Positions 15,969 to 35,082 of a DNA stretch of 64,000 nucleotides are shown piece after piece. Origin of the DNA: Fibrobacterota bacterium (GTDB lineage Bacteria > Fibrobacterota > Fibrobacteria > UBA11236); NCBI GenBank assembly GCA_028287505.1, contig JAQBPN010000011.1:1-64000 (forward strand), written 5' to 3'. The notes beneath the pieces are model-generated. The model made no database searches and was not told the DNA's origin. It saw only the letters and a list, made by a program, of their open reading frames with translations. Made by a program: the position numbers and the translations under genes. Each line of letters begins with the position of its first letter. Within the stretch, counting starts at the first letter, position 1.

Positions 15969-18900
15969 ATGACTAAGGCCAAACGCTGGCTCCTATGGGG
16001 GCTGATACTTTCCCCCGTGGCGATCCTGCCGTCCGCCTTCCTTATTTCACGCCTTTGGCTCAACCATCATCTCCAGCGGGAACTGGCTGTCGGGGAATTC
16101 AGGATCCGCCTGGTCAATCCCAATCTCGGCTGGAACCTGAACTTTTTTTCCGACTCCATGGAGCTTTCCGCGCCGCGGCTTTCCATGCGCACGGGAAAGA
16201 TTTCCACCGATGTCCGCTTCTGGAACTCCATCGCAAGCCTCAAGCCGAGCATCCAGGTAAGCGCCGACACGGTAAGCATCCGGGTGGAGCCGGACTCCTT
16301 GGACAGTCTGGCGCGGGAGCGCAAACGAAGAAACCGGAAGCCTCCGGCATTCCCGAATCTTCGCATCCCGGTGGAGTTCAGGATATCGGCTTCCCAAGTG
16401 GGCCTGGCGGTGGGCGGAATCGAAACGGCCCGCGTGCGCGATCTGGTTTTCCTTTCCCAGGGACCCAAGAGCGTGGCCATCGAAGCTTCCGGAATAGGGG
16501 TGAGGAACCCCCGCGATTCCTCCCTGCTCGACCTGGAAGCCTCCTATCGCATTTCCGCGCGATGGTTCGGCAAATCCGTCCGCTATCAGGTGCGCGCGCA
16601 GAATCGGGGCGGCGACTTCATCCGCTTGGATGGGGAACACCGCAAGACCGATCTGCGCATCGGAAAGGATTCCCTGTCCGCCCAGTGGGCGGACCTCTCC
16701 GCTTTCGTTCCCCTGTTTTCCGGAAAAGGCCCGCCGGATTTTTCCAACCTGGAAGTACAGGCCTCCTTGGAAACAGGCGAACACATCGCTTCCAGGGTGC
16801 GCGCCGCATTCACCACCCCGCGCGTCTGGCAAATCGGTCCGCAACGGATGGAATGGATCGGCAACCTGGCGGATTCCTCGGGACAAATGGCCCTTAAGTC
16901 GCACGGGGTGACGGGGGAGGAGATCTACCTGCAAGGGCATTTCCAATTGCCGAACCTGGACAGCGGCCTTTCCCGCATTCCCGCGGCCATGACCGCCTCC
17001 CTTTCCGGCTACAGCCGCGATTTCCGTTTCCGGATCGCGAACCGCATCCTTCCCGGCGACGCGGAAATCCGCCGGTTGAAACTCCTCCCGGGGCTCAACC
17101 TGGAAGCGGACGTGCGCACCCGGGACAGCTCGGTCTTCCATGGCCGCGCCTATCGGGTTCCGGATTCCTCCCTTAAAAAAGATTCCCGCCCTGCGAAACT
17201 CGTTTCGCGGACGGGCGGCCCGAAGCCGGTCAAACCCGATTCATCCTGGAAGTGCGCCTTTACGGGTACGGTGGATCCCCGGGAAACGTGGGTGCATGCC
17301 TGGGTGGACACCAATGTGACCTTCCGCAATGCCCGCGTCAGCGGCGAGGCCGGAAAAAAGGGACTGACGGTGGAGGCCTGGGTCAAGCAGCCCAAAGCCT
17401 ACGGGGCCGCGGCCGATTCCGTGTACGCGGTGCAGACCGTGAACAAGTCCGGTTATTACCTGACCGGCTCCAGGTTGAACTACAAAGACGTGATGTGGCC
17501 GATTACGGGACAGGTGGAATGGAGGAAAGCGAAATCCGGCAATCCATCGCCGGGAGCGCCCGTCCGCAGGCACAATGTCTCGCTTGCCTTCCGGACGAAA
17601 CACCCGCGTTACGGATCGGTGGAATATGCCATGCCCAGGCGCCGCTTCATGACGGTCCGGGCCGAAAACCTGGATTGCCAGCACCTGCCATACACGAAGT
17701 TGCAAAAGCTCATCGCCCTGAAACCCGTGGTCACCGGCGGCTTCGAATGGGATTGGCTGGCCCGAACGGGCTGGGTGGATGCCAGGGCCGCTTTGGCATA
17801 CGGCGGCCAGTCGCTGGGCGTGAATGCAAAAGCGGACTGGGACGCCCGCTTGTTCCAGGCCAAGGGATTGGATGTTTCCTTCGCGGGTTCCAAATTGCAT
17901 TTTTCCGGCGGAGTGCGGTTGGGGGGAAAGCAGTTCTGGCAGATGGGCAAATTGGGACTCAAGGACGTAAAAGGTTTGGCATTGGAGGCGGAGAAGTTCG
18001 ATGCCGCCAGTCTGGCCGTATTCCTTGGGCCCGGCTATCCGGTGGAGCGCGGAAGCCTGAACGGAAAGCTTTCCTACACGGACAGCAGCGGTTTCCATGG
18101 CCTCTACCAGGTTCGGGACCTGGAACTGGCGCCCGTCCGCAAGCTGGTGGCCGTTCCGCGCCTGGACCTGATCGGCCAAGGGGAGAGTCTGCTCTTGATC
18201 ATGCGCACCGCTTCCGGCGCGTATCCCTGGTTGAACGATTCCATCAACCTCAGGATCGGCGAAGTCCTTGGGAAGGTGCCGGGGATTTACCTCAAGGCCG
18301 TTTCCGATGACGGCTTGTCCGTCTCCTTCCAAGGGCGCGCCCGGGACTTCCGGGACCTGGACGGGACGTTTTCCGTGGTGGGAGACGCCGCCCTGCCGGG
18401 ACAGGCCGGAAAAATCCGGGACGTGGCCGTAGGCGGACACTTCCACACCCCGCTCGCCAAGGGCCTCCTCACGGCAATGGAGTTGGACTCGGGATATTTC
18501 GCCGGGCGTTACGCCATCCCCGGCCTGGAAACCCAGGTATTCAAGGGAAGCATGTCCTTGCGGGACGGACGTCTGCGCATTCCCGATTTGCGGGCCTCCA
18601 ATTCCGGGGGCGTCACCTTGTCCGGTTCCGCGGATTGCGAGTTCGCGGGACCTCCCAGGGTAACCGCGAAGATACGCGGGGAGAATCTGGCCCTGCAATG
18701 GCCCGGGATCCAGAAGCTCATCCTCAAGGACGCGGACGCCTCGTTGGTGGTCGACTCTTCCGGCCTCAGGGCCAAGGCGACCGTGGGCAAGGCGGATTTC
18801 GCCTCCTCCAAGCCGCCGATTTCCATGCGCGGCAGTCTGGAGCAACTGGATTTGGAGTATTTCCAGCCCCCCTCGCCCAAGGCCGCCAAAGGCCCGCCGA

Positions 18901-19940
18901 TCGCGTCCGCCGCCACTCCCCAGCTCAAGGTCAAGGCCAGGATGCGGAACTTCCTGTTCAAGCACAAGATAGGCTTCCGCGAATTGCAGAAGTCGATCCG
19001 CACGGTCAAAACCGATAAGCGCAAGAAACGGGTCAAGCCCATCGACCTGCAATTGAACCTGGAGACCGTGGGAGCGGAGAACCGGATCGAGACCGATGTC
19101 CTGAGAATGTTTTTCGTGGGCGACGTGGCCGTGAAGGGGGTTTATCCCTATACCCTCCTGACAGGCGAGTTCTCGGCGCTGAGCGGAGAGCTGGGCCAGA
19201 CCAGCCAGTCCTACGATATCACCGACTTCGATCTGAAATGGCAGAACGCCACCGTGGAAGAAGGCCGCATCTCGGTGGAAGGAGGCAAGCGCCTGAAATC
19301 CGATTGCAAACCGGAGACCCAGCGCACCTGCAACGTCTACGTCAAGCTCGCCGGCCGCTTGGACGAAATGGCCTTCACCTACGACAGCGATTGCGGCGGC
19401 AACTCCGGCGAGAACCTGGAGCCCGCCGCCCTCATCAATTCCGTCAGCCGAGGGTGCTATTCCGACGAGTACGTGGCGGGCGCCGGGGGCGGCAATTACG
19501 GCGAGGCCGTGTTCGTGCTGCTGGAGCCCACCATCAATGAAAAGCTGACCAGCGTGGGCGATCGTTTTTCGGGCGGCTGGATCAAGCGCACCTCCGTGAG
19601 CGGGATCGGCAGCGCGGTTTCCGGGGACACCACCGGATCGGAGCCCATCGCCATCGGGGTGGAGAGCAAGGAGAAATGGGGAGTGAGCTTCAAGGCCAAG
19701 GCCGGATACCATCCCGAAAAGAAGGTTCAGAACCCCTGGGAGAACGAAGTGGCCATGGAGTGGCGTCCGCCCCTGGAAAAGGCCTCCAAGAATTCCGAAT
19801 GGAAGCGCCGCGTCCGCGATCGCGTCACCCTGGAAGCCTCGGCGGGAACCCGTCCCGATGAGAGGGTGAAAGAGGAAAACCGCCAGGTGCGCGAGCAGGT
19901 CGGGATCCGCTATCGTTACAAATTCTGGAATCTCTGGTAG
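15969..19940 (+). CDS. tamB: TamB-like translocation and assembly module protein
   Basis: A 1323-residue AsmA/TamB-family protein: one N-terminal membrane anchor (LLWGLILSPVAILPSAFLIS), then a long stretch of beta-rich repeats expected to form a hydrophobic groove across the periplasm. A C-terminal TamB domain (about 1030-1323) ends in an aromatic residue (YRYKFWNLW). It lies 6 bp upstream of the TamA-like gene, the usual pair. The system helps insert outer-membrane proteins and/or move phospholipids to the outer membrane. Start: ATG 15969, three codons inside a possible GTG at 15960. The C-terminal domain contains two Cys pairs (SDCKPETQRTC, DSDCGG), which are unusual for TamB. Confidence 0.88.
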   Translation: MTKAKRWLLWGLILSPVAILPSAFLISRLWLNHHLQRELAVGEFRIRLVNPNLGWNLNFFSDSMELSAPRLSMRTGKISTDVRFWNSIASLKPSIQVSADTVSIRVEPDSLDSLARERKRRNRKPPAFPNLRIPVEFRISASQVGLAVGGIETARVRDLVFLSQGPKSVAIEASGIGVRNPRDSSLLDLEASYRISARWFGKSVRYQVRAQNRGGDFIRLDGEHRKTDLRIGKDSLSAQWADLSAFVPLFSGKGPPDFSNLEVQASLETGEHIASRVRAAFTTPRVWQIGPQRMEWIGNLADSSGQMALKSHGVTGEEIYLQGHFQLPNLDSGLSRIPAAMTASLSGYSRDFRFRIANRILPGDAEIRRLKLLPGLNLEADVRTRDSSVFHGRAYRVPDSSLKKDSRPAKLVSRTGGPKPVKPDSSWKCAFTGTVDPRETWVHAWVDTNVTFRNARVSGEAGKKGLTVEAWVKQPKAYGAAADSVYAVQTVNKSGYYLTGSRLNYKDVMWPITGQVEWRKAKSGNPSPGAPVRRHNVSLAFRTKHPRYGSVEYAMPRRRFMTVRAENLDCQHLPYTKLQKLIALKPVVTGGFEWDWLARTGWVDARAALAYGGQSLGVNAKADWDARLFQAKGLDVSFAGSKLHFSGGVRLGGKQFWQMGKLGLKDVKGLALEAEKFDAASLAVFLGPGYPVERGSLNGKLSYTDSSGFHGLYQVRDLELAPVRKLVAVPRLDLIGQGESLLLIMRTASGAYPWLNDSINLRIGEVLGKVPGIYLKAVSDDGLSVSFQGRARDFRDLDGTFSVVGDAALPGQAGKIRDVAVGGHFHTPLAKGLLTAMELDSGYFAGRYAIPGLETQVFKGSMSLRDGRLRIPDLRASNSGGVTLSGSADCEFAGPPRVTAKIRGENLALQWPGIQKLILKDADASLVVDSSGLRAKATVGKADFASSKPPISMRGSLEQLDLEYFQPPSPKAAKGPPIASAATPQLKVKARMRNFLFKHKIGFRELQKSIRTVKTDKRKKRVKPIDLQLNLETVGAENRIETDVLRMFFVGDVAVKGVYPYTLLTGEFSALSGELGQTSQSYDITDFDLKWQNATVEEGRISVEGGKRLKSDCKPETQRTCNVYVKLAGRLDEMAFTYDSDCGGNSGENLEPAALINSVSRGCYSDEYVAGAGGGNYGEAVFVLLEPTINEKLTSVGDRFSGGWIKRTSVSGIGSAVSGDTTGSEPIAIGVESKEKWGVSFKAKAGYHPEKKVQNPWENEVAMEWRPPLEKASKNSEWKRRVRDRVTLEASAGTRPDERVKEENRQVREQVGIRYRYKFWNLW

Positions 19941-19946
19941 GCCCCG

Positions 19947-21812
19947 TTGCGTCAGATCCCTTTCCCGACGTTTCCGTCCGCCGCTTTGGCTCTGTGGTTT
20001 TGCGCCGCCGCCTGGTCCGCCGCCCCCGTCGTTTATGAAGGCAACGATCACCTCTCGCGCAAGAAACTCGACGCCGTCCTGTCGGCGCCCGACAAGCCCA
20101 AAGAGCTTTCCCCCGAGGATTGGGAGGACTGGGTGGACGAAGCCGCCGCGTCCATTACGGATCTTTACGGTGAAACCGGCTATCTGGATGCGGCGGTCAA
20201 GGTGGATGCTCCCGGTTTGGACAGCGCCAAGGCGGACGATAACCGGATCCGCATCCATATCCGCGAGGGCGATCGCTACCGGTTCGGCAAGGTGGCCATC
20301 GTCACGACCGATCACGCCCCGTCCGTGATCGAAGCGGAGAAACTGCGCTCCCGCACCGGCAAGGCGTTCGAAAAGGATCTCGTATTCCGCGACCGCCGCG
20401 AAATCCTGAATGCCTACGGGGATGCGGGCTTTCTCCACGCCCGCTCCGCGGAAACCCTGGCTCCGGACACCGCATCCAAGACGGTCAATCTCGAAATCAC
20501 CGTCGACCCCGGCCCGGCGGTGGTATTCGATACCCTGGCGATCCGCGACCTGCGGGAAGGCGATACCACGGGCAAATCCGGGGTGACGAACACTCGCCTG
20601 CTCAAGTCCCTGCTGGGCATCAAACCCGGCGACACCGTAAGTCTTTCCACCATCAATACCTTCGAACGCAAGCTCAAGTCCACCCGCGCATTCAACTATG
20701 TGCGCTTGCGCGACAGCCTCCTCGAGACCAAAGGCAACCGGAGCGCCCTGATCCTGTCCACGGAAGAGCGCGTACCCGGCGAAGCCGATCTCTCCGTCTT
20801 CTTCGAAACCCAATATGGGGGCGGCGTGGCCGCCAATTGGACCCATGGGAACATGCTGGGGCAATTGCACGAAGGCCGTCTGGGAGGATCCTGGGCGCAA
20901 CGGAAGCAGAGCGTGTATCTGGGATACGCCTCGCCCTTGTTTTTCGGGACCAGCCTTCGCTTCGACAACGACTTGGTGGCCAATTGGTACCAGGACAGCG
21001 AACTCCAGAAAATGGCCCGATCCTATGAGGGGGATTTCGACATCACCAATGCCAGCAAGATTTCCAGGTCCATCACCAGCTGGTCCCGCGGCGTCAGCAC
21101 CACGGAATTGACGGGCCAGAGCGAAAAACTCGACAGTACCGTCACGGAAAGGGCCTTCAACCTTAACTTCATCAACTCGGTTTTTTTCAGCTTCCTGGAC
21201 GATGCGGTCAATCCGGCGCGGGGCGCCAGGTGGTCCTTCACCTGGGGCAATGGCGGATCCTTTCTCAATGAGGGCAAAATCGATGTGCCTGTTTCCGTGC
21301 GCCATAATTGGCTGGAAGGGGAGAGCGCCTATTATTACCCCCTAATGGAAAGGATCAAGCTGGCCTTTCGCCTGGACGGAGGCCGGTTCTACGGAGACGG
21401 CGGCCTGAATTCGGAGCGGTTTTTCCTGGGAGGGCCGCGGAGCGTCCGCAGCTTTGGATGGCGCAAGGTCTGTCCGGAAAGGGATTCCAACGACGTCTGC
21501 ATCAAACTGGGGCTTGAACCCGCCTATTTCCTGACCTCCTTCGAAGTCCGGTCCAGTCCCTTTTCCGCCGCTTTTATCAATCCCGATGGACATTGGCGAT
21601 GGCTCCTGGGCGTCCAGGTGGTTCCTTTCGTCGACTACGGAAACGTCTGGCAGGTTGGGAAAAGCGTCACTTCCGGGGGGGAAGGCCGGGCCTACGGCCT
21701 GGGATTGCGATATTCCCTGCTTTCCATTTTCAATCTCAGGGTGGATTATGCCGTGGATGGGTGGGAACGGAACAATAGCCAATGGGTTTTGGACCTGGCA
21801 CAGGCTTTTTGA
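19947..21812 (+). CDS. tamA: TamA/BamA-family outer-membrane protein
   Basis: A 621-residue Omp85 protein. A signal peptide (PSAALALWFCAAAWSA) is followed by POTRA-type repeats (about residues 30-270, with VNLEITVDPGPAVVFDTLAI as a clear POTRA strand pair) and a beta-barrel domain (about 280-621) ending in a C-terminal Phe (LDLAQAF), the usual outer-membrane insertion signal. The start is TTG at 19947, 6 bp after tamB, chosen because it sits directly before the signal peptide. Encoded with tamB, it should form the outer-membrane half of the translocation and assembly module. Confidence 0.88.
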   Translation: MRQIPFPTFPSAALALWFCAAAWSAAPVVYEGNDHLSRKKLDAVLSAPDKPKELSPEDWEDWVDEAAASITDLYGETGYLDAAVKVDAPGLDSAKADDNRIRIHIREGDRYRFGKVAIVTTDHAPSVIEAEKLRSRTGKAFEKDLVFRDRREILNAYGDAGFLHARSAETLAPDTASKTVNLEITVDPGPAVVFDTLAIRDLREGDTTGKSGVTNTRLLKSLLGIKPGDTVSLSTINTFERKLKSTRAFNYVRLRDSLLETKGNRSALILSTEERVPGEADLSVFFETQYGGGVAANWTHGNMLGQLHEGRLGGSWAQRKQSVYLGYASPLFFGTSLRFDNDLVANWYQDSELQKMARSYEGDFDITNASKISRSITSWSRGVSTTELTGQSEKLDSTVTERAFNLNFINSVFFSFLDDAVNPARGARWSFTWGNGGSFLNEGKIDVPVSVRHNWLEGESAYYYPLMERIKLAFRLDGGRFYGDGGLNSERFFLGGPRSVRSFGWRKVCPERDSNDVCIKLGLEPAYFLTSFEVRSSPFSAAFINPDGHWRWLLGVQVVPFVDYGNVWQVGKSVTSGGEGRAYGLGLRYSLLSIFNLRVDYAVDGWERNNSQWVLDLAQAF

Positions 21813-21914: not shown

Positions 21915-22475
21915 ATGGCTTTCGCCGCGAAAACGCATCTTTTCGGAGCCTGCTTGGTAGTGGCATTGTCCCTGCCCGGCATCGCACTCAGTGAGACTTC
22001 GGGCAGCTGTCCCCAGGACGCCGACAATCCCGCCGCCGCTCGAGGCCAGACCGGTTCCATCAACGTGCTCACCACGCCGGAAAAAGCCATGGTGTATCTG
22101 GACGGCGACAAGCTGGGGCTTTCCCCGATCGATACGGCATTCCGCACCGGCCGCTTCAGCCTGACCATTATGCTGAATGGCGAAGAGCTGGTGAAAGAGC
22201 GCGTCAACATCTGCGCCGGACAGAAAACCGTTGTGGAGCAGACCTTGAAGATGCCCTATGGCAGCGTCGCGGTCAAAACCAATCCCCTGAAGATGAACGC
22301 CAGGGTGACCGTGGACGGGGAAGAGGTGGGCACGACCAAAGGCGGCGTGCTAACCATCAACCGCCTCGAAGCCGGAACCCGGGTTTTCAAGGTTTCCAAT
22401 GGAAAGCGTCATAAGGAAATATCCGTAAACGTGCTTCCCGAGGAAACCGTCGAACTCAACGTGGATTTGAAATAG
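21915..22475 (+). CDS. Exported PEGA-domain protein
   Basis: A 186-residue protein with a textbook AGGAGG site 4 bp before its ATG. Residues 1-27 form a signal peptide (GACLVVALSLPGIALS). Two PEGA-type beta modules follow: GSINVLTTPEKAMVYLDGDK (about 48-110) and GSVAVKTNPLKMNARVTVDG (about 118-186), each with the GxSPI/GTTKGG type turn. PEGA domains are found in cell-surface and periplasmic proteins and are thought to bind glycans or protein partners. The gene ends at a good terminator, so it is transcribed separately from the envelope run that starts at 22961. Confidence 0.82.
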   Translation: MAFAAKTHLFGACLVVALSLPGIALSETSGSCPQDADNPAAARGQTGSINVLTTPEKAMVYLDGDKLGLSPIDTAFRTGRFSLTIMLNGEELVKERVNICAGQKTVVEQTLKMPYGSVAVKTNPLKMNARVTVDGEEVGTTKGGVLTINRLEAGTRVFKVSNGKRHKEISVNVLPEETVELNVDLK

Positions 22476-22530: not shown

Positions 22531-22566
22531 GGCCCGCTCGGATTCTCCGGGCGGGCCTCGTTTTAG
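22531..22566 (+). terminator. Rho-independent terminator after PEGA gene
   Basis: A 12-bp stem (GGCCCGC-T-CGGA / TCCG-G-GCGGGCC) with a 3-base TTC loop spans 22531-22557. It is followed by TCGTTTTAG. It lies 56 bases past the PEGA stop codon. Confidence 0.75.
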
Positions 22567-22960: not shown

Positions 22961-24073
22961 TTGAAACTGATACCCATGTTGACGGTTCTGGCCGCTTTCG
23001 CCGTATCCACGGTCGATGCAGCCGCTCCCAAAGCGGAAGCCGTTCGGGGACCGAGTCGCATTGCTATCCTGGAATTCGTGGATCTCACCGATAACCAGCA
23101 AAAACCGGACATATCGGATATGGTCCGCAAGGCCCTGGCCTCCACGGGCAAGTGGTCCATCCTCGCCCGGGATTCCGTGGCCAAGCGCCTGGGCGAATTC
23201 AACATCAACCCCCATCAAAGCTGCAACAATCCCCAATGCAGCTTCGACATCGGCAACGTGGTGCAGGCTGAATACGTTCTGTTCGGGACCGCCACGCCCC
23301 TGGCTTCCGTCCATGCCGTGACCTTGAAGCTGCTCCACATCCCCACCGCCAAAATCGTGTGGACCCGGGTGATGGAAGGGGAAGGTTCATCGGACGCGGA
23401 TCGCCTGCGCTCCCTGGAAAAATCCTTCGCGGTCGCGGCGACGGAAATCTCCCAGATAAAACCCGACATGGACAAGTCAAAACACGGTAAAACCCTGGCG
23501 GTGATCGATCTCAGCGAAAACTCCCTCCAGTCCCGCGCTTTCTTCGAAAGAGTCTGCACGCGGATCTATGGAAACCCTTCTTTCGACCTGATGAGCCCGA
23601 CCGAGCTCACCGAACTGCTCACCGCCCTGGAGATCAACAAATACTCGGTGGTCCCTTCCCTGGAAAACATGATCGGATTGGGGCAGAAGCTAGGCGTGTC
23701 CAACCTTCTCTACTCGCGCCTCTACCGGGACGGCCGCAGCTACATCTACCGTCTGGCCATGTATGACGTGGCGAACAAGGCCCTGATCCTGGAGCTGCCC
23801 CCCCAACCTTCCGAGGATTTGATCAAATTACTGGACTACGAAAAGGTTTTTTTCAATACTCTATTCAGTAAAGAAAAAGACGAGCCGAAAATGGCGGTCG
23901 TAAAGGATGGCGGCAAATCCAACAAAGCGCTTTGGATCTCGTTGGGAGTGCTCGGAATCGGCGGCGGTGTGGCCGCATACTGGGTGGAGAATCTTCGCAA
24001 GTCGGACAAACCGAACAATACCGCGGACAATCATATCCCTTTTCCAAGGGATCCTCCTACTAATGCGGACTAG
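22961..24073 (+). CDS. CsgG/LpoB-like periplasmic protein with C-terminal membrane segment
   Basis: A 370-residue exported protein. A TTG start at 22961 gives MKLIPMLTVLAAFAVSTVDAA, a proper signal peptide, whereas upstream in-frame codons run through non-coding-looking sequence. Residues about 30-150 (RIAILEFVDLTDNQQKPDIS, then EYVLFGTATPLASVHAVTLK) resemble the nucleotide-binding-like fold of CsgG, TolB N-terminal and LpoB domains. A second alpha/beta region follows. A hydrophobic helix ALWISLGVLGIGGGVAAYW (about 323-341) near the C-terminus would anchor it in a membrane. It is first in a run with the TonB/TolA-like TPR protein (46 bp gap), a beta-propeller and a TPR protein, suggesting an envelope complex. 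Confidence 0.65.
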   Translation: MKLIPMLTVLAAFAVSTVDAAAPKAEAVRGPSRIAILEFVDLTDNQQKPDISDMVRKALASTGKWSILARDSVAKRLGEFNINPHQSCNNPQCSFDIGNVVQAEYVLFGTATPLASVHAVTLKLLHIPTAKIVWTRVMEGEGSSDADRLRSLEKSFAVAATEISQIKPDMDKSKHGKTLAVIDLSENSLQSRAFFERVCTRIYGNPSFDLMSPTELTELLTALEINKYSVVPSLENMIGLGQKLGVSNLLYSRLYRDGRSYIYRLAMYDVANKALILELPPQPSEDLIKLLDYEKVFFNTLFSKEKDEPKMAVVKDGGKSNKALWISLGVLGIGGGVAAYWVENLRKSDKPNNTADNHIPFPRDPPTNAD

Positions 24074-24119
24074 CAGGCTACGGACGAAGCCGATTTCAAT
24101 ATATTTTTAGGGACTGAAT

Positions 24120-25391
24120 ATGAGCGATACGAATTTTAGCTACATGGAAGTTTCCGCCAAACGCAAGAAGCGGAACCAATTCATTTCGGTCCTGATCATC
24201 GTTGCCATCGTATTGATGGGCGTGATCGTTTGGGGCTGGATCGAATTGCAGAAGAGCCGCAATGCGGAGCGTATCAAGAATGCGCTCAACAGCCAGATAG
24301 AACCCGGCTTCAAGGAGCCGGAAACGGCCCAGGAGCCGATCAAGGATTCCAGCAACGTCGTCGTGCAGGATGCTCCCGCCGCGGAGCCGGTCGCCCCCGC
24401 GGTGGTACCGGAACCCAAGCCTGAACCCGTCGCCCCCAAGCCTGTCGCGGTAAAGCCCGTGAAACCCCATAAGGAACCGGTGAAGGCGGCCGATCTTCCC
24501 AAAGAGCCCGGCTATGCGCCCGAGCCCGCCGTCGTGGAAGCGAAACCCGTTCCGGTTCCCAAGCCCGTGGCCGTCAAACCTTCCAAGCCGGCCCCCGAGC
24601 CGAAACCGGTGGTAGCGCCGGAACCCCCCGTTCAAGTTGCGATGCATAAGCCGGATCCCATCCCGGCCGTGCCCACCCCCAAGCCCGCTCCCGTGGCTGC
24701 AAAGGCCTATCCCCCTGAGGATCTGCCGTTGCCCGAGAAGGCGGAACCCACCGAGGATGTGAAAAACGCGGTGGCCGTCATTCCCGCTCCGGCCATGCCG
24801 AAGGCGGAAGCCGTGCCCGCCGACGACCCGAATGCTTCGGGCAGCTTCAAGCTGGGAATCTCCGCCTACAAACAACAAGACTACGTCAACGCCATCCGGT
24901 CCTTTTCCGCCGTTCCCAAGCCCGCTTCCAAGAAGCGCGGCGCCCAGGATCGGGACGAATACGTGCAGGCCAACTTCCTGAAAGGCATGTCGCTTCTCAA
25001 GGTCGGCCATCTCAGCGAGGCCGTGAGCGCCTTCCAGAATGTGCTCGAGTACGAGAAGTACTATCCTCTCGCCAACATGAATCTCGGTATCTGCTACGTT
25101 GAACTGAAGCAGTACGCCAAGGCCCATCAGGCTTTCGAGGCCGTGGTCCGGGACCAGAGCTTCATCGAACCGGCCGTCTTCGACGACGTGATGCAGCGGA
25201 CCAAATACTTCTGGGCGCTGGCCTGGACCCGTCTCTACAAGAACGCCACCAATCCGGATAAACAGAACTTCTACCGCCAGCAGGCCGTGCTCAAATGGAA
25301 AGACTATGAAGTGTGGTTTTCGAAGAACGACAAGTACAAGAACGAGAACCTGAAGGCCGAAAACTACCTAAAAAGCCTGAGCAGCCTTTGA
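24120..25391 (+). CDS. Inner-membrane-anchored protein with Pro-rich linker and periplasmic TPR domain
   Basis: A 423-residue protein. A short cytoplasmic stretch with a basic patch (KRKKRN) is followed by one transmembrane helix (FISVLIIVAIVLMGVIVWGW, about 21-40). A long Pro/Lys/Glu/Val/Ala linker comes next (about 75-230, repeated KPVAVKP, PEPKP, VAPKP motifs) of the type that lets TonB and TolA cross the periplasm. A C-terminal TPR domain (about 240-423; SGSFKLGISAYKQQDYVNAI, FLKGMSLLKVGHLSEAVSAF) takes the place of a TonB/TolA C-domain. It is second in the envelope run. The architecture suggests linking the inner membrane to outer-membrane or wall partners (inference). Confidence 0.75.
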   Translation: MSDTNFSYMEVSAKRKKRNQFISVLIIVAIVLMGVIVWGWIELQKSRNAERIKNALNSQIEPGFKEPETAQEPIKDSSNVVVQDAPAAEPVAPAVVPEPKPEPVAPKPVAVKPVKPHKEPVKAADLPKEPGYAPEPAVVEAKPVPVPKPVAVKPSKPAPEPKPVVAPEPPVQVAMHKPDPIPAVPTPKPAPVAAKAYPPEDLPLPEKAEPTEDVKNAVAVIPAPAMPKAEAVPADDPNASGSFKLGISAYKQQDYVNAIRSFSAVPKPASKKRGAQDRDEYVQANFLKGMSLLKVGHLSEAVSAFQNVLEYEKYYPLANMNLGICYVELKQYAKAHQAFEAVVRDQSFIEPAVFDDVMQRTKYFWALAWTRLYKNATNPDKQNFYRQQAVLKWKDYEVWFSKNDKYKNENLKAENYLKSLSSL

Positions 25392-25477
25392 TGATGAAAT
25401 CACTGGAATGCGGCAAGCGTGGAGTTGCGAAGCAACTCAATAGCGAAGTCGCCTATTATGCGGAGAAAAGGGTTTCC

Positions 25478-26776
25478 ATGATAAGCAGGATCCTGAATAG
25501 TTGCCTGGTGTTGGGCCTGGTTTCGATCACCGGCGCGACGGCCGCTACCGATGCCACCGATGCGAGCAAAACCGTGGTGGTGGTCTCCAGCGACAACCCG
25601 AAGATCTCCGGGCAGCTTTTCCACCCCAAAATCTGTCCCAACTTCGTCAACTACATCGCGTTCGTGCGGCAGATCCGGGACAACCGCCAGATCTGGCTCT
25701 TCGATTCCAAAACCAAGGAGCTGACCCAGATTACGCCCCATGCGGCTTCGGGGAAAATCGAAGACGTGAACATCGATGAAGACACCGATCAGAGCATTTT
25801 CAAAGGGTATGAAGATGAGTTGGAATGGTGCCCGGTCCTGCACGATGGGATCCAGTATTATCTGTATGTGAGCGCCGGCGGCGTGAACAACCACGATATC
25901 TACATCAGCGCCATCGGCTCCAAGACCCACACCCGCCTGACTTTCGACCCGGAAGTGGACGGCACCCCGCGTTGGTCTCCGGACGGCAAGAGCGTTGTGT
26001 TCGTGTCCGCCCGCACCGGGGACGGGGATCTGTACCTGGTTCCGGACATCACCAAGTACCTGGGCAAGGACATCAAGCGCGAGGCCCGCAATGCCTTTGA
26101 GCGCCTGACCACCAATCCCGGCGAGGAAATGTTCCCCTCCTATTCGCCCGACGGCCGTTTCCTGGCCTATACCACGCGCACCAGCGGAAACAAGAAGCGC
26201 GGCCTGTACACCATCGCCTTGATGGACTTCAAGGATGATCACAAGATCAAGATTTTCAACAATCAGATCACCAACAACAAGAGCCATCCTTCCTGGTCCT
26301 TCGACGGACATTTCGTGGCCTACCAGATTTCCAATGATCTGAACGACCGGGTGGTGGACATCGGAGTGATGCAATTGAAGGTGGATCCCCAGGGCCATCT
26401 GGTGGAAGTGGCCGATTTGCACGGGAAGACCCCCAAGATCGCCGAGAACGTTTATCCCAGCTCCTATACCGGGCCCACTTGGCTCCCCGGCTCGCGCGCC
26501 ATCGTGTACGCCAAGCGGGAATCCAGCCGGTTGAACCCCCTGGAAGTCGTCAATCTGGAAAAGTGGTTGTACGACCAGAACTATACCCGGGCGACCATCA
26601 CCACGCAGTCGAACATCCATCGGGACGTGGATTGCCTGCCCAATCATCCCATCATCGTATTCGCGGGCCAGTCGGGCCTGGATTTCCAAATCTTCGCCTC
26701 CGTGCTGATCGGTACCGATTTAAGGCTGGGAGCTGAAAAGGTGGATTTGGCCAAGTATGACCTTTTCAAAAACTAA
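25478..26776 (+). CDS. Periplasmic PD40/TolB-like beta-propeller protein
   Basis: A 432-residue protein. The ATG at 25478 gives a signal peptide (MISRILNSCLVLGLVSITGA) and has AAAGGG upstream. Repeated WD40-like PD40 blades are clear: PRWSPDGKSVVFVSARTGDG, FPSYSPDGRFLAYTTRTSG, HPSWSFDGHFVAYQIS and PTWLPGSRAIVYAKRE. This is the propeller type of TolB and of many periplasmic scaffolds; the TolB N-terminal domain itself is not obvious. It follows the TolA-like TPR gene by 86 bp and overlaps the next TPR gene by 20 bp, so the three are probably co-translated. Confidence 0.8.
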   Translation: MISRILNSCLVLGLVSITGATAATDATDASKTVVVVSSDNPKISGQLFHPKICPNFVNYIAFVRQIRDNRQIWLFDSKTKELTQITPHAASGKIEDVNIDEDTDQSIFKGYEDELEWCPVLHDGIQYYLYVSAGGVNNHDIYISAIGSKTHTRLTFDPEVDGTPRWSPDGKSVVFVSARTGDGDLYLVPDITKYLGKDIKREARNAFERLTTNPGEEMFPSYSPDGRFLAYTTRTSGNKKRGLYTIALMDFKDDHKIKIFNNQITNNKSHPSWSFDGHFVAYQISNDLNDRVVDIGVMQLKVDPQGHLVEVADLHGKTPKIAENVYPSSYTGPTWLPGSRAIVYAKRESSRLNPLEVVNLEKWLYDQNYTRATITTQSNIHRDVDCLPNHPIIVFAGQSGLDFQIFASVLIGTDLRLGAEKVDLAKYDLFKN

Positions 26777-28187
26777 GGGTCTCCTTCTCTTCCTGCTCGC
26801 TCTTCTGTATCTGCCAAGCGAAGGAAAAGAAGACCCCGTAGACCTTATCCGCCGGCATCGTTACGACGAGGCTGTATCGGCTTGGGATAAGGATCTGGAC
26901 GGCGGTAAGCTGGACGAGAAGGGCCTGCGGGCCCTTAAAGGCAAGTCCCTGGCTTACTTCCGCCTGGGCAGTCTTTATGGTGTGTACTCGACCTTTTCCA
27001 ACGCCATCATGGCCGAATATTACGCGGCGCTGCTGGAATCCGGCGCCAGCGCCATCCACTATCTCTACCTGGGCCAAATCCAGTACCAGAGCGGAAAATT
27101 CGCGGATGCCAAATCCTCTTTCGAAAAGGCCAAGAAGCTGGGCGGGGCCGGACCGGGGATACTGGAAATGGTCGACGTGTTCCTCTTCTTCGCGCGCAAG
27201 CGTCTGGGAGAGGCCACGGGAGAAATGAATCTCGGCGTCAAGGACAATTCCTCCCAATGGCAGGCCATGGAGCTGAAAGGTTCCGGAGCCGGCGACATTC
27301 CCCAGGGAATGGCCGGACAGTCCCAGCGCAGCCGCCGGTGCAAGCTTAAAATCCTGATCCGCAGCAATTCATCCCAGGTCGCCGATGTCGAAAGCACCCT
27401 GAAGGCCGTCCTGAACGATGCCCAACAGCCCGAGATGTATCTGGACCAGGGCAAAAACACCCAGATAAATTTTTACGACCCGTTTCTGATGGAAACCCTT
27501 TCCGATGCGTATTTCACCCTGAGCAAGCTGACCAATCTCCGCATCAAGGATGAGGAGAAGCGGTTCCCGGAACTGGCGGCCAAATTCAACACCGATCAGG
27601 CGTTGGCCGAGTCCTGCGCGCGTCTGGGTCAGTGGAAAGAGGCGGCCACGTATCTCCCCAAGGATGGCGATATCGAGTCCCAATTGGTAAAGGCGGAAGT
27701 GCTGGCCCATTCCAACAAAGTCGGCGAGGCCAAAAGCCTGCTTGAATCCGTTTCCAATTCCGCGAAAAACCCTTCCGATCAGAGAGATATCGCCGACTGT
27801 TATTATCTTTTAGGTTTCGACCTGGATAAGGGCTTGAAGCTGGCCGGACAAGCTGTTAGGGAGAAAAACGGACCCAATTATTATCGGACCTACGCAAATC
27901 TGTTGTTCGCCACGGGCCAAACCGAGTCGGCGATGCAACAATATGCAAAGGGATACAAAATCGAATACCGGAATCGCATCGATCAAATCGACCCGGAATA
28001 CATGACCGACTATGCTTTCGCCATTTTCAAGACCAATAAGCTGAGGTACGAGGAAATCGTGGAGACACTGTACCATTTGCAGAAGGAGTTCCCTGCCTGC
28101 CGGCAAATGCATTATTGCATGCAGGGGATTTCGGCGGGACTGGCGCGTAGCTATGAATCGCAGAGGATTTTCCGTAAGGGCGGCTGA
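26757..28187 (+). CDS. Exported TPR protein
   Basis: A 476-residue protein whose ATG lies inside the end of the propeller gene (20-bp overlap). Signal peptide: KGLLLFLLALLYLPSEG. Several TPR-like helical pairs are visible, e.g. HYLYLGQIQYQSGKFADAKS (about 100-120) and a later group around 310-440 with CYYLLGFDLDKGLKLAGQA. The sequence is less regular in the middle, with a segment LKILIRSNSSQVADVESTLK. TPR proteins such as CpoB and PorW-like factors serve as periplasmic adaptors; this one closes the envelope run. Its stop codon lies in the first of four tandem hairpins. Confidence 0.72.
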   Translation: MTFSKTKGLLLFLLALLYLPSEGKEDPVDLIRRHRYDEAVSAWDKDLDGGKLDEKGLRALKGKSLAYFRLGSLYGVYSTFSNAIMAEYYAALLESGASAIHYLYLGQIQYQSGKFADAKSSFEKAKKLGGAGPGILEMVDVFLFFARKRLGEATGEMNLGVKDNSSQWQAMELKGSGAGDIPQGMAGQSQRSRRCKLKILIRSNSSQVADVESTLKAVLNDAQQPEMYLDQGKNTQINFYDPFLMETLSDAYFTLSKLTNLRIKDEEKRFPELAAKFNTDQALAESCARLGQWKEAATYLPKDGDIESQLVKAEVLAHSNKVGEAKSLLESVSNSAKNPSDQRDIADCYYLLGFDLDKGLKLAGQAVREKNGPNYYRTYANLLFATGQTESAMQQYAKGYKIEYRNRIDQIDPEYMTDYAFAIFKTNKLRYEEIVETLYHLQKEFPACRQMHYCMQGISAGLARSYESQRIFRKGG

Positions 28188-28255
28188 AGCAGCCGTGAGC
28201 GGCTGAGACAGCCGTGGGGCGGTTGAAGCAGCCAATGCGGCTGATTTTGAGCCGC
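28182..28255 (+). repeat. Four tandem approximately 20-bp hairpin repeats
   Basis: Four short inverted repeats are spaced by 17-20 bases: GGCTG-aag-CAGCC (28182-28194), GGCTG-aga-CAGCC (28201-28213), GGTTG-aag-CAGCC (28221-28233) and GCGGCT-gattttg-AGCCGC (28237-28255). The first includes the stop codon of the TPR gene. Together they form an array between the envelope run and the peptide transporter operon and may protect the 3' end or reduce read-through. Confidence 0.7.
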
Positions 28256-28353
28256 CCCTGTGGCCGACCCCATTTTGGGTTTGCCTGCGGGGGGGATAGG
28301 CGATCATGGATCGCCGCGGGAGCCGGAGACGGCGACCGTTTATGAAAGGAACC

Positions 28354-30015
28354 ATGAAGGGACGGAAAGCCATAAACTCGGTGTTCAGGATGGGAACCAT
28401 GCCATATTTCAAGACTCTGAATTACGTGGCGCTGGCCTTGATATGCTGCACCGCGGCAATGGCCGCGGGCAAAGGCGGAGGTGGCGATGCCCTCAAGGGC
28501 GGGCGGCTGATCTATGCCGAACCCATATTGCCGGATACGTATGATCCCATCACCACGTCCGATAACGAAACTTCTTTGCGGCTGTCGGAACTTCTCTTCG
28601 AATCCCTGGTATACATCGATTACCGCGGCGAGGTGAAAGGCCGTCTGGCCGAGAAGTGGAACGTATTCAACGGCAACCAGCGTATCACCTTCTACCTCCG
28701 CAAGGACGTGAAGTGGCACGACGGCACGCCCTTCACGGCGAACGACGTCAAGTTCACCTACGACGCCATCATGAATCCCCTTTCGGACGTCCGCCCCGAG
28801 AGCCGCCAGGCGCTCGAGGTCATCAAGAGCGTTTCGGTACTGGGCGATTACGTGGTCAAGTTCGACTTCAACACCAGCGTGGCCGAACCCGAGCGCCGCT
28901 TCCTGTTCAAGATCGTTCCCGAGCATCTGTTCGGCGGCAAGCCCGTGCTGTCCAAGTTTTCCAAGTTCTCGAAGAATCCCATCGGCACCGGTTATTACAA
29001 GTTCGACCGCGAGACCAAGAACCACGATGTCATCCTCACCGCCTTCACCGATCATTACGGCGGACCTCCCAACATCGGCGAAGTGAAAATGGTCTATCAG
29101 CCGGAAATGTCCCTGTTGGTCCAGAGCCTGCTCCTGAACGCCATCGACCTGGTGGTCGAGGTCCCTCCGGGCAAGATCGCGGAAATCGCGAACACGGGCA
29201 AGTTCATGATCATTCCCTACAACTCGCTGGCCTTCGCATTCTTCGGCTACAACAGCAACAATCCCATCCTGCGCATCAAGGAAGTCCGGCAGGCCTTCAC
29301 CATGGGCATGGACCGGAACAAGATGCTGGAAGACATCTATTTCGGAAAGGGCGAAGTCATTTCCGGTCCCTTCTCCCCGGCATCCTGGGGTTACAACCCC
29401 GACGTCGCTCCCTGGCCGTATGACGCCACCAAGGCAAAGGCCCTGCTGGACAAAGTCGGCATCAAGGACACGGACGGCGACGGCATCCGCGAGTACAAGG
29501 GCATGCCTCTCAAGTTCAAGCTCAAGATCCCCATCTACAGCGGCAATGAAGGCGGCCTTTCCGTCTGCCTCCGGTTCCAGAATTACCTGAAGACCCTGGG
29601 CGTGGTGGTGGAGCTCCAGCATCGCGAATACGAGAAGTGGAAGGAAGAGGTCAAGTCCAAGCATGACTTCGATATCGTCTTCGCCGAGTGGCTCTTCGAC
29701 AACTCCTCCGACATCTCCTCCCTGTTCTACTCCACCAAGAACCAGCCGCCGTCCGGCGATAATTTCATCTCCTACAAGAACCCCAAGGTGGACAGTCTGC
29801 TGACGAAGTTCTCCACCACCATCAATCATGAGGTGCGCCGCCGCATCAACTATGAGCTGCATGAAATCCTGGCGGAGGAATGCCCCTACACATTCCTCTG
29901 GACCCTGGAGAAGAATGCGGCGATCGAGAACAAGGTCAAGAAGGCGGTGGTTCATCCCTACCGGTTTTTCACTTTTATCAACGACTGGTTCATTCCAGAG
30001 GACGAAAGGGATTGA
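28354..30015 (+). CDS. Peptide/oligopeptide ABC transporter substrate-binding protein (family 5)
   Basis: A 553-residue periplasmic binding protein (SBP_bac_5, DppA/OppA type). The family signature region is clear: KGRLAEKWNVFNGNQ, then ITFYLRKDVKWHDGTPFTAN-DVKFTYDAI (about residues 100-130). The signal peptide is in KTLNYVALALICCTAAMAAG; the lipobox is not canonical, so it may be free or membrane-tethered. ATG 28354 follows an AAAGGAACC site; ATG 28390 or 28399 are alternatives that shorten the leader. It is the first gene of a peptide importer; a small lipoprotein gene lies 6 bp downstream. Confidence 0.9.
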   Translation: MKGRKAINSVFRMGTMPYFKTLNYVALALICCTAAMAAGKGGGGDALKGGRLIYAEPILPDTYDPITTSDNETSLRLSELLFESLVYIDYRGEVKGRLAEKWNVFNGNQRITFYLRKDVKWHDGTPFTANDVKFTYDAIMNPLSDVRPESRQALEVIKSVSVLGDYVVKFDFNTSVAEPERRFLFKIVPEHLFGGKPVLSKFSKFSKNPIGTGYYKFDRETKNHDVILTAFTDHYGGPPNIGEVKMVYQPEMSLLVQSLLLNAIDLVVEVPPGKIAEIANTGKFMIIPYNSLAFAFFGYNSNNPILRIKEVRQAFTMGMDRNKMLEDIYFGKGEVISGPFSPASWGYNPDVAPWPYDATKAKALLDKVGIKDTDGDGIREYKGMPLKFKLKIPIYSGNEGGLSVCLRFQNYLKTLGVVVELQHREYEKWKEEVKSKHDFDIVFAEWLFDNSSDISSLFYSTKNQPPSGDNFISYKNPKVDSLLTKFSTTINHEVRRRINYELHEILAEECPYTFLWTLEKNAAIENKVKKAVVHPYRFFTFINDWFIPEDERD

Positions 30016-30021
30016 GCTCAC

Positions 30022-30447
30022 ATGGCACAAACTGCTGCAAGGAAGCGTAACGGCATAGGATGGGGGCTCTTCTTGATGCCCCTGCTTTTGGCAGGTTGCG
30101 GGACCACCATGAGCGGTCACGTGGTCAAGCCCGACGGTTCCGGTCTCACGGAGCCGAACGTGGTAGTCTACACGAGCCCGCGCACCGAATCCGTCCGGGT
30201 GGGCAAGGACGGCACGTTCAAGCTCGGCAAGAACGTCATCGAGGAGAATGAGTACACGCTCATCGCCGAGGACAAGGACGGCAACATGGGTTACGTCCGA
30301 TCGTTCAAGCCCAAGAAGGGCTCCAACAAGAACATCATCCTCCGTCTCTCCCGGGAGATTGACGGCAAGGATGCCGTCATGGAAGGCGGACCCAACGAAG
30401 GCAATACCACCGGGTTGGGCGAGAAAATCCTGAAATCCAGCCCGTAG
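30022..30447 (+). CDS. Small lipoprotein with carboxypeptidase-regulatory-like fold
   Basis: A 141-residue protein with a clear lipobox (LMPLLLAGCGTT; Cys at about 26). The mature part MSGHVVKPDGSGLTEPNVVV and RVGKDGTFKLGKNVIEENEY resembles the Ig-like carboxypeptidase regulatory (CarboxypepD_reg / Cna-B-like) fold, followed by a disordered acidic end. It is 6 bp after the binding-protein gene and so is almost surely part of the importer operon; it may help dock the binding protein at a membrane (inference). Confidence 0.7.
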   Translation: MAQTAARKRNGIGWGLFLMPLLLAGCGTTMSGHVVKPDGSGLTEPNVVVYTSPRTESVRVGKDGTFKLGKNVIEENEYTLIAEDKDGNMGYVRSFKPKKGSNKNIILRLSREIDGKDAVMEGGPNEGNTTGLGEKILKSSP

Positions 30448-30548
30448 CCCGGCCATTTACATAGATGAAGCCGGGTTTTGGAAATGCTCCCCTGGAGCGT
30501 TTCGCGAGTCCGGAATCGCGGCCCGGTTGCTTTGCAGCGGGCCGCAGC

Positions 30549-30578
30549 TTGTTCCTGGGCAGGCCGATACGCGATAAT
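30549..30578 (+). promoter_or_regulatory. Possible internal promoter before the permease genes
   Basis: TTGTTC (30549-30554) and GATAAT (30573-30578) are 18 bp apart and 60 bp upstream of the permease ATG, within a 190-bp gap in the operon. The -10 is good and the -35 weak. Confidence 0.35.
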
Positions 30579-30637
30579 CAGGGGACCGGGGCGCCATTTT
30601 CCACGCCTCCGGCACGCGGGAGAAGGTTGGAGTAGGC

Positions 30638-31546
30638 ATGCGGTCCATCGCCAAAATCGTCGGCTTCTTCGCCGGCTCCTTGTTCCTCGTTTCCCTGCTT
30701 ATCTTCGGCATCATCCATCTGACACCCGGCGACATCGCCGAGATCCACAATCTGTCTCCGTCCACGGCGCATCAGCTGTACCTGGATCGACCCATGGCCA
30801 TTCAATACTTCCTGTGGCTGAGGGGCTGCCTGACCTTGGATTTCGGAATCTCCATGGTCAACGGCGCCAAGGTCTCCAGCCAGATTGCCGAGTACGCGCC
30901 TCCGACCCTGTTGCTGACTTTCGGCTCCCTGTTCCTCTCTCTGCTGGTCTCCATCCCGTTGGGCGTCTACCGCGGTCTGCGCCCGGTCTCGCCATTGGGC
31001 AAGTTCATCAGCCTGGCTGTGTATACGCTTTCCTCCATTCCGGTCTTCGTGCTCGGCTATATCGTGTTGGCCGTGGTGTTCGGCGTGTTCCGCTTCTACG
31101 TGACGACGCCGCCCGACGGGCCGTTCCGGTTCTGGCCGTACGTGAGCTACTACTCCCTGCCCATCTTCGTGCTCGCGGTGGGCAACGGTACCATCGGCGA
31201 GTTCGTCCGCTTCATTTCCCTGGAAGTCCAGAACGTGAACAGCGCCATGTTCATCAAGGCGGCCCGCGCCCGCGGCAGCAGCCTTTGGAAGCATTTCTTC
31301 CGATCCATGGTACTGCCCATTTTCAACATCATCGTCACCAATATGGCCGTGCTCCTGGGCGGCCTGGTGGTGGTGGAGCGCATTTTCAATTTCCATGGCC
31401 TGGGCTGGCTCAGCTGGGAAGCCACCCTCAAGCGCGACTTCTCCGTCATCATGGGGATCACCCTGGTGATGGCTTTCCTCATCCGGGTATTCATGTTGGC
31501 GAATGATCTATTGGCCGTATGGCTCGATCCGCGGATGCGCGAATGA
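30638..31546 (+). CDS. Peptide ABC transporter permease, DppB/OppB type
   Basis: A 302-residue inner-membrane permease with six predicted helices. The first lies at about 7-28 (IVGFFAGSLFLVSLLIFGII), followed by the periplasmic 'LTPGDIAEIHNL' region and the binding-protein-dependent transport core. The EAA loop is MFIKAARARGSSLWKHFF (about 205-222), which contacts the ATPase. Length fits DppB. The stop overlaps the next permease start (ATGA, 31543-31546). Confidence 0.9.
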   Translation: MRSIAKIVGFFAGSLFLVSLLIFGIIHLTPGDIAEIHNLSPSTAHQLYLDRPMAIQYFLWLRGCLTLDFGISMVNGAKVSSQIAEYAPPTLLLTFGSLFLSLLVSIPLGVYRGLRPVSPLGKFISLAVYTLSSIPVFVLGYIVLAVVFGVFRFYVTTPPDGPFRFWPYVSYYSLPIFVLAVGNGTIGEFVRFISLEVQNVNSAMFIKAARARGSSLWKHFFRSMVLPIFNIIVTNMAVLLGGLVVVERIFNFHGLGWLSWEATLKRDFSVIMGITLVMAFLIRVFMLANDLLAVWLDPRMRE

Positions 31547-32685
31547 AGCGGAGCGCGTTCTACAAGTACCTTAAAAAGCCGGGAAGCTACCGCATCCTGG
31601 CCGGCAGCATCATCGTGGGCTTGCTGGCCTTGGCCACCCTGACCGGCGGCGCGTGGACCAGCTACGGGCCCGATGAACTGGATCTGGATCATCTGCTCAC
31701 GCCTCCTTCCGTGGGGTGGATGAAAAGGCTGCTCGCCACCGAGGCGGGCCTGCGCATGCAACAGCGCAATCAGGCCGGCGGGCGCGGGGATTCACATCCC
31801 CGGGCGGTGACCGCCGACGACGAGGATTTGGATTTCCTGCAAGGCGATTCCGCCCGGGACGGCAAGCCCGCGGAAGACAGCGCATCCCTGGGAGGCGCCG
31901 CAGGCTCTCCGACGGATGCCGGGTCCGGAGGCGAGGGCCCATCGGCGGCAGGGGCCGCCACCGGCGGCGACGGCGGCTACGGTCAGGAAGCCAGGCATAC
32001 CAACAAGGCCCACCTGCTGGGCACGGACAAGAACGGGCGGGACATGATGGCCCTGCTGGTGGCCGGGGCGCGCAATTGTTTCCTGCCGGGACTGGTCACC
32101 TGCGCATTCGCATTGGGATTGGGCGTGCCCCTGGGCCTTTTCGCAGGCTACTACGGCGGCCGGGTCCGCAAAATCGTGGGCACCTTCAACAGTACCATCC
32201 TGTCCCTGCCCCGCCTGGTCCTGATCCTGGTGGTGATCTGCGCCCTGGAGCCGAACGTCTACTACACCATGGGCGTGCTGGGGGCCACCTTGATCCCGCG
32301 CGTCTCGGAACTGATCGCCACGCGCGTGCGCATCCTGTCCAACATGGGTTTCATCCTGGCGGCCAAGGAAGCGGCCTTGAGCGATTTCAAGATCCTGTAC
32401 CGCCATCTTTTCTGGTACCAGAACCGGGCCGTCTTCTTCATCCAGTTCTCGCTGATCATGGCGGAATCGATCCTGGTGGAAACCACTCTGAGCTACCTGC
32501 AGTTCGGCACCAAACCGCCCGAGGTTTCCTGGGGCAATATCATAGAGGGCAGCCAGATGTCCTTCTTCAGCGGGTTCTATTGGATCACCTTCTTCCCGGC
32601 CATGGCCATCATCCTGGCCATCCTGGGATTCTTCTACCTGGGCGACGGATTGAACGCAAGGCTGGCATATCGTGAAGGAAGATAG
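31543..32685 (+). CDS. Peptide ABC transporter permease, DppC/OppC type, with long low-complexity insert
   Basis: A 380-residue permease. Helix 1 (AGSIIVGLLALATLTGGAW, about 20-38) is followed by an unusual Gly/Ala/Ser/Asp-rich insert (about residues 60-150) and then the family hallmark HLLGTDKNGRDMMALLVAGA (about 156-175). Five more helices follow, with the EAA loop AAKEAALSDFKILYRHLF. DppC proteins normally reach the LGTD motif within about 80 residues, so the insert adds about 80-90. It is probably periplasmic, facing the binding protein. The gene overlaps the DppB-like permease by 4 bp. Confidence 0.88.
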   Translation: MKRSAFYKYLKKPGSYRILAGSIIVGLLALATLTGGAWTSYGPDELDLDHLLTPPSVGWMKRLLATEAGLRMQQRNQAGGRGDSHPRAVTADDEDLDFLQGDSARDGKPAEDSASLGGAAGSPTDAGSGGEGPSAAGAATGGDGGYGQEARHTNKAHLLGTDKNGRDMMALLVAGARNCFLPGLVTCAFALGLGVPLGLFAGYYGGRVRKIVGTFNSTILSLPRLVLILVVICALEPNVYYTMGVLGATLIPRVSELIATRVRILSNMGFILAAKEAALSDFKILYRHLFWYQNRAVFFIQFSLIMAESILVETTLSYLQFGTKPPEVSWGNIIEGSQMSFFSGFYWITFFPAMAIILAILGFFYLGDGLNARLAYREGR

Positions 32686-32704
32686 GATCAGGATGTCCAT
32701 AGGA

Positions 32705-32897: not shown

Positions 32898-32919
32898 TCT
32901 CTTCGCAGGCGGAGGCTCA

Positions 32920-35049: not shown

Positions 35050-35082
35050 AAAAGCGCCGCGGATGCGGCGCTTTTCTGTTTT
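35050..35082. terminator. Bidirectional rho-independent terminator
   Basis: An 11-bp perfect stem AAAAGCGCCGC / GCGGCGCTTTT with GGAT loop (35050-35075) is followed by CTGTTTT. It lies between the plus-strand ATPase gene and the convergent zinc-ribbon gene and has A/T tracts on both sides. Confidence 0.9.

Follow-up and report, generated by a model that had tools for sequence, protein, structure and literature searches.

Is the Tol-like gene group a system of its own?

Does a run of four adjacent genes resembling parts of Tol-Pal form an envelope machine of its own, or is it one half of something larger? The question is raised by positions 22961 to 28187 of a Fibrobacterota contig (GenBank JAQBPN010000011.1), of which a 64,000-nucleotide stretch, C117:1-64000, was analysed and is referred to as the window. 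The original prediction described these genes as encoding a CsgG/LpoB-like protein (G1), a membrane-anchored linker protein with TPRs (G2), a PD40 propeller (G3) and an exported TPR protein (G4). All four open reading frames are present where it had placed them, and the overlap that it noted between G3 and G4 measures 20 bp in the window and 14-20 bp in five tabulated orthologous loci. In contrast, the set does not end at 28187, since the conserved unit runs on into five further genes (the Opp side) encoding a solute-binding protein (SBP), a small lipoprotein (LIPO), two permeases (OppB and OppC) and an ATPase (OppDF). The locus (22961-35022) is therefore best read as a nine-gene operon, G1-G2-G3-G4-SBP-LIPO-OppB-OppC-OppDF, that encodes an oligopeptide ATP-binding cassette (ABC) importer together with scaffold proteins, and that is known so far from a single branch of Fibrobacterota only. 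No description of such an operon was found in the literature searched, which was covered mostly at abstract level. Its genes are as follows.

22961 to 24073, + strand: G1, exported, with a CsgG/LpoB/TolB_N-like domain and a C-terminal membrane helix
24120 to 25391, + strand: G2, single-span inner-membrane protein with a Pro-rich linker and a periplasmic TPR domain
25478 to 26776, + strand: G3, exported PD40 beta-propeller without the TolB N-terminal domain
26757 to 28187, + strand: G4, exported TPR protein, strongly conserved in its C-terminal third
28354 to 30015, + strand: SBP, family-5 solute-binding protein (Pfam SBP_bac_5)
30022 to 30447, + strand: LIPO, small lipoprotein with lipobox LAGC
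30638 to 31546, + strand: OppB-type permease (BPD_transp_1)
31543 to 32685, + strand: OppC-type permease (BPD_transp_1) with a long loop before GTDxxGRD
32920 to 35022, + strand: OppDF, fused ATPase (ABC_tran and oligo_HPY)

Gene order, presence and absence

The window genome (G000; 6.07 Mb, 130 contigs, 98.7% complete) has Fibrobacteres/Fibrobacteria metagenome-assembled genomes as its closest named relatives. It was compared with members of its own genus (together G000-G005), of a second genus in the same family f1 (G006-G009), and with G010, which belongs to another family within the same order. Gene calling and BLAST on orthologous loci showed that the order from G1 to OppDF is kept in eight genomes (G000-G005, G007 and G008). 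The neighbourhood comparison named in the original prediction thus recovers its four genes as an adjacent, conserved and co-inherited set, and the grouping is not due to chance, since the same genes also adjoin in other genomes. G010 carries G2-G3-G4-SBP-LIPO-OppB-OppC-OppD-OppF contiguously on C22 (locus L097), with OppD and OppF as separate reading frames and different genes on both flanks. Because G2 to OppDF stay together there without G1, they represent the most widely kept unit. In G008, spacing from G1 on is tight (13, 18, -14, 16, 3, 59 and -4 bp), as would be expected for one transcript.

Presence of the set is all-or-none. In G006 and G009, the gene that normally lies after OppDF comes immediately after TamB-TamA; all nine genes are gone, as is the upstream gene for a PEGA-domain protein, and no homologue of G1, G3 (E <1e-40) or G4 occurs elsewhere in either genome. 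G3 (E <1e-40) and G4 (E <1e-8) were found as single copies in the same nine of 167 Fibrobacterota genomes, and in these nine G2-G4 never occur without the five Opp-side genes. Similarly, the G2 TPR domain has matches in 10 of 41 genomes, which are strong in the nine operon genomes only. An SBP search (query 28378-30012) matched 12 of 120 genomes drawn: eight at E 1.2e-290 or lower, all of them operon genomes, and four others weakly (24-25% identity). G010 lies outside this draw, and its SBP orthologue is in L097. A loose G3 search matched 41/41 genomes, because PD40 repeats are common, and the best E outside the nine was 7.5e-9. A contig scan beyond the known set, using two short peptide patterns that distant relatives elsewhere could escape, returned only these Fibrobacterota and one generic PD40 match in Algoriphagus. 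Taken as they stand in these genomes, the genes from G2 to OppDF very probably function jointly.

Rates of change within the set

Identities to the orthologues in G002, G004 and G005, respectively, differ widely between genes: 98.2, 96.7 and 95.0% for SBP; 96.8, 94.2 and 89.8% for G3; 94.7, 94.0 and 90.1% for OppB; 82.5, 77.7 and 76.1% for OppC; and 76.9, 81.4 and 76.6% for G2. Of the 34 genes in the window that have a match in G002, SBP is the second most identical and G3 the fifth. Conservation of G3 exceeds that of the canonical TolB of the cell, for which the corresponding values are 84.1, 87.1 and 84.7%. Ordinary Opp-type clusters (L140 and L143, at G000:C5 and G005:C298) provide an internal control from the same genomes; between G000 and G005 their identities are 77.6% for SBP, 85.7% for OppB, 79.3% for OppC, and 82.7 and 80.6% for the ATPases. 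By this control, the excess conservation in the operon lies in SBP and not in the pump. The conservation of SBP and G3 may reflect a ligand and a partner surface that are both fixed.

These clusters also bear on whether the locus is simply a nutrient Opp operon, with TPR and propeller neighbours that make no contact with the transporter. The Opp/App family is mostly nutritional, and co-regulation alone can keep neighbours together. However, no TPR or PD40 gene was seen in either ordinary cluster on reading the gene calls (no profile scan), and the operon SBP is far more conserved than its ordinary counterpart. A purely nutritional operon is thus unlikely.

The transporter genes

The Opp-side proteins have the domains of a complete importer. 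SBP scores 256.5 bits with SBP_bac_5 (cut-off 32.4); its start codon is ambiguous (28342, 28354 or 28393), and its nearest solved relative is Bacillus subtilis AppA (1xoc, E 3.2e-56). OppB and OppC score 80.7 and 32.2 bits with BPD_transp_1 (cut-off 26.4), and OppDF scores 177.8 bits with ABC_tran and 75.4 bits with oligo_HPY, with two sets of Walker A, signature and Walker B motifs, all intact. LIPO has a weak carboxypeptidase-regulatory-like match in addition to its lipobox. SBP residue D441 is invariant in eight aligned orthologues and aligns with the Asp of the DppA motif WTGD, a position that we take to be the same as Asp439 of MppA. In MppA, the free amino group of the ligand is reportedly bound through Asp439, and AppA accepts peptides two to nine residues long (both as given in PMC6022919). 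Family membership and the conserved Asp predict that SBP is the peptide-binding component of an importer.

OppC has 380 residues here, with GTDxxGRD at 160, and the loop preceding this motif varies strongly in length. In all nine aligned sequences, the loop contains a pair of leucines, spaced three apart amid acidic residues (DDEDLDFL here; DNSLDYL and DEDILGAL in others). This motif is a candidate TPR docking site; the stretch is short and loosely aligned, and the likeness may be due to chance.

Like AppA/OppA-type ABC importers, the operon combines an SBP_bac_5 protein, two BPD_transp_1 permeases and an ABC_tran ATPase with an oligo_HPY C-terminus. It differs in that the same operon also encodes two TPR proteins, a propeller, a small lipoprotein and a CsgG/TolB_N-like protein, that the OppC loop is long and variable, and that SBP hardly varies within the genus. 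By analogy rather than homology, the closest precedent is the family of TPR-associated TRAP transporters (TPAT; TatT-TatP(T)-TatQM), in which a periplasmic TPR protein is bound to the SBP, as seen in the solved TatT-TatP(T) complex (PMC5812351). The likeness would lie in a periplasmic TPR protein being encoded with an SBP and a transporter. In contrast, TPAT systems have a TRAP-type SBP and DctQM, whereas the transporter here is of the ABC kind, and the TPAT description consulted mentions no propeller, TolA-like TPR protein or CsgG-like protein.

The scaffold genes compared with Tol-Pal and type IX secretion

The domain assignments originally given to G2, G3 and G4 are borne out. G2 has a single membrane helix (residues 21-39), a Pro/Lys/Ala-rich linker and a TPR_2 match (44.5 bits, cut-off 27), and, as had been claimed, it ends in TPRs and not in a TolA C-domain (no TolA match at E 1). 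Its linker differs in length from one genome to another; the parts that are kept are the helix, the TPRs and, ahead of these, a PEDLP-like motif. G010 has the G2 TPR domain twice; the additional copy (L099:5122-6594; about 48-50% identical) is joined to a different exported N-terminal domain, with no ABC transporter alongside on its 11-kb contig.

G3 matches PD40 at 61.3 bits (cut-off 20.9), in agreement with a periplasmic propeller. It was rejected as a TolB: it scores 95.1 bits with TIGR02800 (cut-off 343.15), as against 383.9 for the true TolB of the same genome, and has no TolB_N match at E 1. For G3, modelling gave a low-confidence propeller (mean pLDDT, the predicted local distance difference test, 59.2) with many propeller matches, the best being 8wt1 (Z 20.9, 304 residues aligned, root mean square deviation 3.9); no TolB chain is among the 50 matches listed, which carries no weight. 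G4 is an exported TPR protein, and its last third is the best-kept part across orthologues. In G003, G4 lies in two frames (G003:C43:36061-36186 and 36173-37390, covering residues 1-42 and then about 67-69 onward) and is thus frameshifted or affected by a sequencing error; all remaining operon genes were found in that genome.

The operon shares with Tol-Pal the layout of a membrane-anchored linker protein, a PD40 propeller and a TPR protein. It differs in having no TolQ, TolR or Pal, a propeller below the TolB cut-off and a linker protein that ends in TPRs. The absence of TolQ and TolR from the locus had been correctly noted: no MotA_ExbB (PF01618) match falls inside the window, and the nearest among the G000 matches listed is at C117:71126. 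The genome has a separate Tol-Pal locus at G000:C66, from which the set is distinct. At C66, genes for TolQ, TolR, a TonB/TolA-like protein, TolB, Pal and a CpoB-like protein follow one another. NCBIfam cut-offs are exceeded by TolB (383.9 bits) and Pal (127.4); the assignments of TolQ, TolR and CpoB are best matches with scores under the cut-off, and for the TolA-like protein no model gave a match at the threshold applied.

If G1-G4 were a separate inner-to-outer membrane machine for wall synthesis, constriction or secretion, as originally suggested, then the Opp genes would be mere neighbours. Parts laid out like TolA, TolB, CpoB and LpoB, and the adjacency of G1-G4 in eight genomes, are consistent with this proposal. 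However, G2-G4 are always accompanied by the five Opp-side genes (nine genomes, including G010 with its changed flanks), no motor protein is encoded in the window, and Tol-Pal is found elsewhere in the genome. The conserved unit includes a complete ABC importer, and in G010 it is G1 that leaves and the Opp genes with which G2-G4 stay. A machine limited to G1-G4 is therefore improbable.

Additionally, TPR and PD40 proteins occur in both the type IX secretion system (T9SS) and gliding machinery, and the operon could be an accessory part of either (PorE/PorW or Glt-like). SprA passes its cut-off in 11/11 genomes searched, and Glt core genes are reported from Fibrobacter (PMC3169522). SprA is nevertheless present in G006 and G009, which lack the operon, and the NCBIfam PorE model gives 16.1 bits against a cut-off of 600 for G2 only, with no match to G3. 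T9SS membership was rejected on these two counts, orthology to PorE is not supported, in line with the original prediction, and an accessory role in secretion or gliding is highly improbable.

G1, a fold shared with several envelope proteins

G1 is read from a TTG at 22961 (an alternative ATG lies at 22976) as a protein of 370 residues, with an N terminus resembling an export signal and a hydrophobic helix at residues 324-342. Its description as CsgG/LpoB-like stands as regards the fold and the C-terminal helix; the LpoB label itself does not. Among its nearest Pfam families (DUF3280, FlgO, TolB_N, CsgG and LpoB) every score is under cut-off. LpoB was rejected at 20.8 bits with the equivalog TIGR02722 (cut-off 110.55) and CsgG at 13.9 bits (cut-off 20.8). 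The AlphaFold model has a mean pLDDT of 49, and only residues 24-163 form a confident domain, which matches FlgT (Z 12.7), the TolB N-domain (Z 12.4), PelC (Z 11.5) and LpoB (Z 11.3) about equally; by this model, the likeness to LpoB is one of shared fold only. G1 residues 24-163 thus adopt the LpoB/CsgG/FlgT/TolB N-domain fold, but G1 differs from these proteins in its C-terminal membrane helix, in showing no lipobox in a pattern search of the first 40 residues and in reaching no model cut-off. A second stretch with a similar order of helices and strands (pLDDT <50) might, as a guess, be a tandem domain.

G1 adjoins G2 in eight of the nine genomes carrying the set. Its homologues occur in 11 of 41 genomes, several of which have paralogues beside unrelated genes. 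As an obligate part it was rejected, with paralogues in L100, L101, L102 and L106 adjoining unrelated genes and the G010 homologue elsewhere; for the same reason it is assigned to the operon only within family f1. In L100, L101 and L102, the paralogue directly precedes a putative lipoprotein or exported protein, forming a recurrent pair. This partner begins with a DFDSPYxPGSxxYAGDxW-like motif, followed by a DxDGxGVxDS calcium-type repeat.

A proposed scaffolded peptide importer

With moderate confidence, we favour an importer of oligopeptides that has a periplasmic scaffold of its own, for which the physical assembly, the ligand and the direction of transport are predicted. G2 would be anchored in the inner membrane beside OppB and OppC, with its flexible linker reaching into the periplasm, where its TPR domain, the G3 propeller and G4 could form a cage or docking platform for SBP. 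G1 and LIPO may tie this scaffold to the membranes. SBP would take a peptide in the usual family-5 pocket and dock on OppB/OppC, and ATP hydrolysis by OppDF would drive import; the energy would come from OppDF, and no proton-motive-force motor is encoded in the window. Since SBP and G3 barely change while several operon parts drift, the ligand is probably one invariant, self-made peptide. Probable candidates are a peptide of the cell wall or a secreted peptide after processing, and delivery would take place at a fixed site in the envelope. Mixed food peptides would be the less likely cargo.

Several observations weigh against this proposal. The gaps ahead of OppB (145-190 bp) and of SBP (146-166 bp) in some first-genus genomes are long enough to hold internal promoters. 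The empty site in G006 and G009 counts only once, as it may reflect a single deletion event. The closest G010 homologue of G1 (about 34% identical) is unlinked, on C349 among unrelated neighbours. OppB, OppC and OppDF are not markedly above their ordinary counterparts in conservation, and, because the peptides accepted by AppA vary in length, belonging to this family does not imply a fixed ligand. Finally, a physical complex of scaffold and transporter is a prediction for which the models are of single chains and both weak (mean pLDDT 59 and 49).

Two further proposals keep the scaffold and transporter together. If SBP and OppBCDF serve in sensing, then loaded SBP would report a peptide, such as a wall-turnover product, and G2-G4 and G1 would relay the signal to a process in the wall or envelope, with only a secondary role for import. 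The very high conservation of SBP and G3 and the LpoB/TolB_N-type domain of G1 are consistent with such signalling. However, no regulator or receptor gene was recognised within the nine-gene unit, and the intact ABC motifs and both permeases above the Pfam cut-off point to real transport; signalling is unlikely, if the least so of the alternatives. Alternatively, the Opp ATPase, and not TolQ/R, might drive the TolA/TolB/CpoB-like scaffold as an ABC-powered trans-envelope machine. As the moving component, loaded SBP would then link ATP hydrolysis at the inner membrane with work, or with a hand-over, at the wall or outer membrane, and the OppC motif would serve as the TPR docking site. This too is improbable.

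In the usual picture, an Opp importer consists of a free periplasmic binding protein and a membrane pump. A pump kept with an anchored TPR protein, a propeller, a second TPR protein and a near-invariant SBP suggests that there are envelope-organised peptide importers serving one self-made peptide. If the predicted complex exists, then ABC transporters would have their own equivalent of the TPR-associated TRAP transporters. The original observation stands, and its boundary was wrong; in place of a Tol/Lpo-like machine, the locus is now read as a peptide importer with a scaffold.

Flanking features and a mobile-looking element

Three features flank the operon.

21915 to 22475, + strand: PEGA-domain exported protein, an upstream neighbour probably outside the operon
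22531 to 22557, + strand: terminator-like hairpin of 12 pairs, between PEGA and G1
35050 to 35075, + strand: terminator-like hairpin of 11 pairs, after OppDF

In the window and in four other loci that were tabulated, 202-487 bp separate PEGA from G1. A hairpin similar to that between the two genes is present in L110 and L111 and was not found in L112, L113, L115 or L116. The hairpin after OppDF is not conserved, none being found behind OppDF in seven orthologous loci, and promoter-like sites show no excess (5, as against a shuffle mean of 4.7). In G010, PEGA stays with TamA on C32, beside a different CsgG-type gene that scores above cut-off. The TamB/TamA pair (15969-21812) lies directly upstream; it is conserved with the operon in family f1 and retained where the operon is lost.

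In L110, L111 and L116, the gap between OppC and OppDF ranges from -14 to 46 bp; in the window it is 234 bp. The window gap contains a mobile-looking element (32703-32901), whose inverted 35-nt arms are 97% complementary and consist of 7-bp repeats of the CGTCGGG type. The element has 123 BLAST matches in its own genome, including some in the window near 13524-13560 and 40200-40304.

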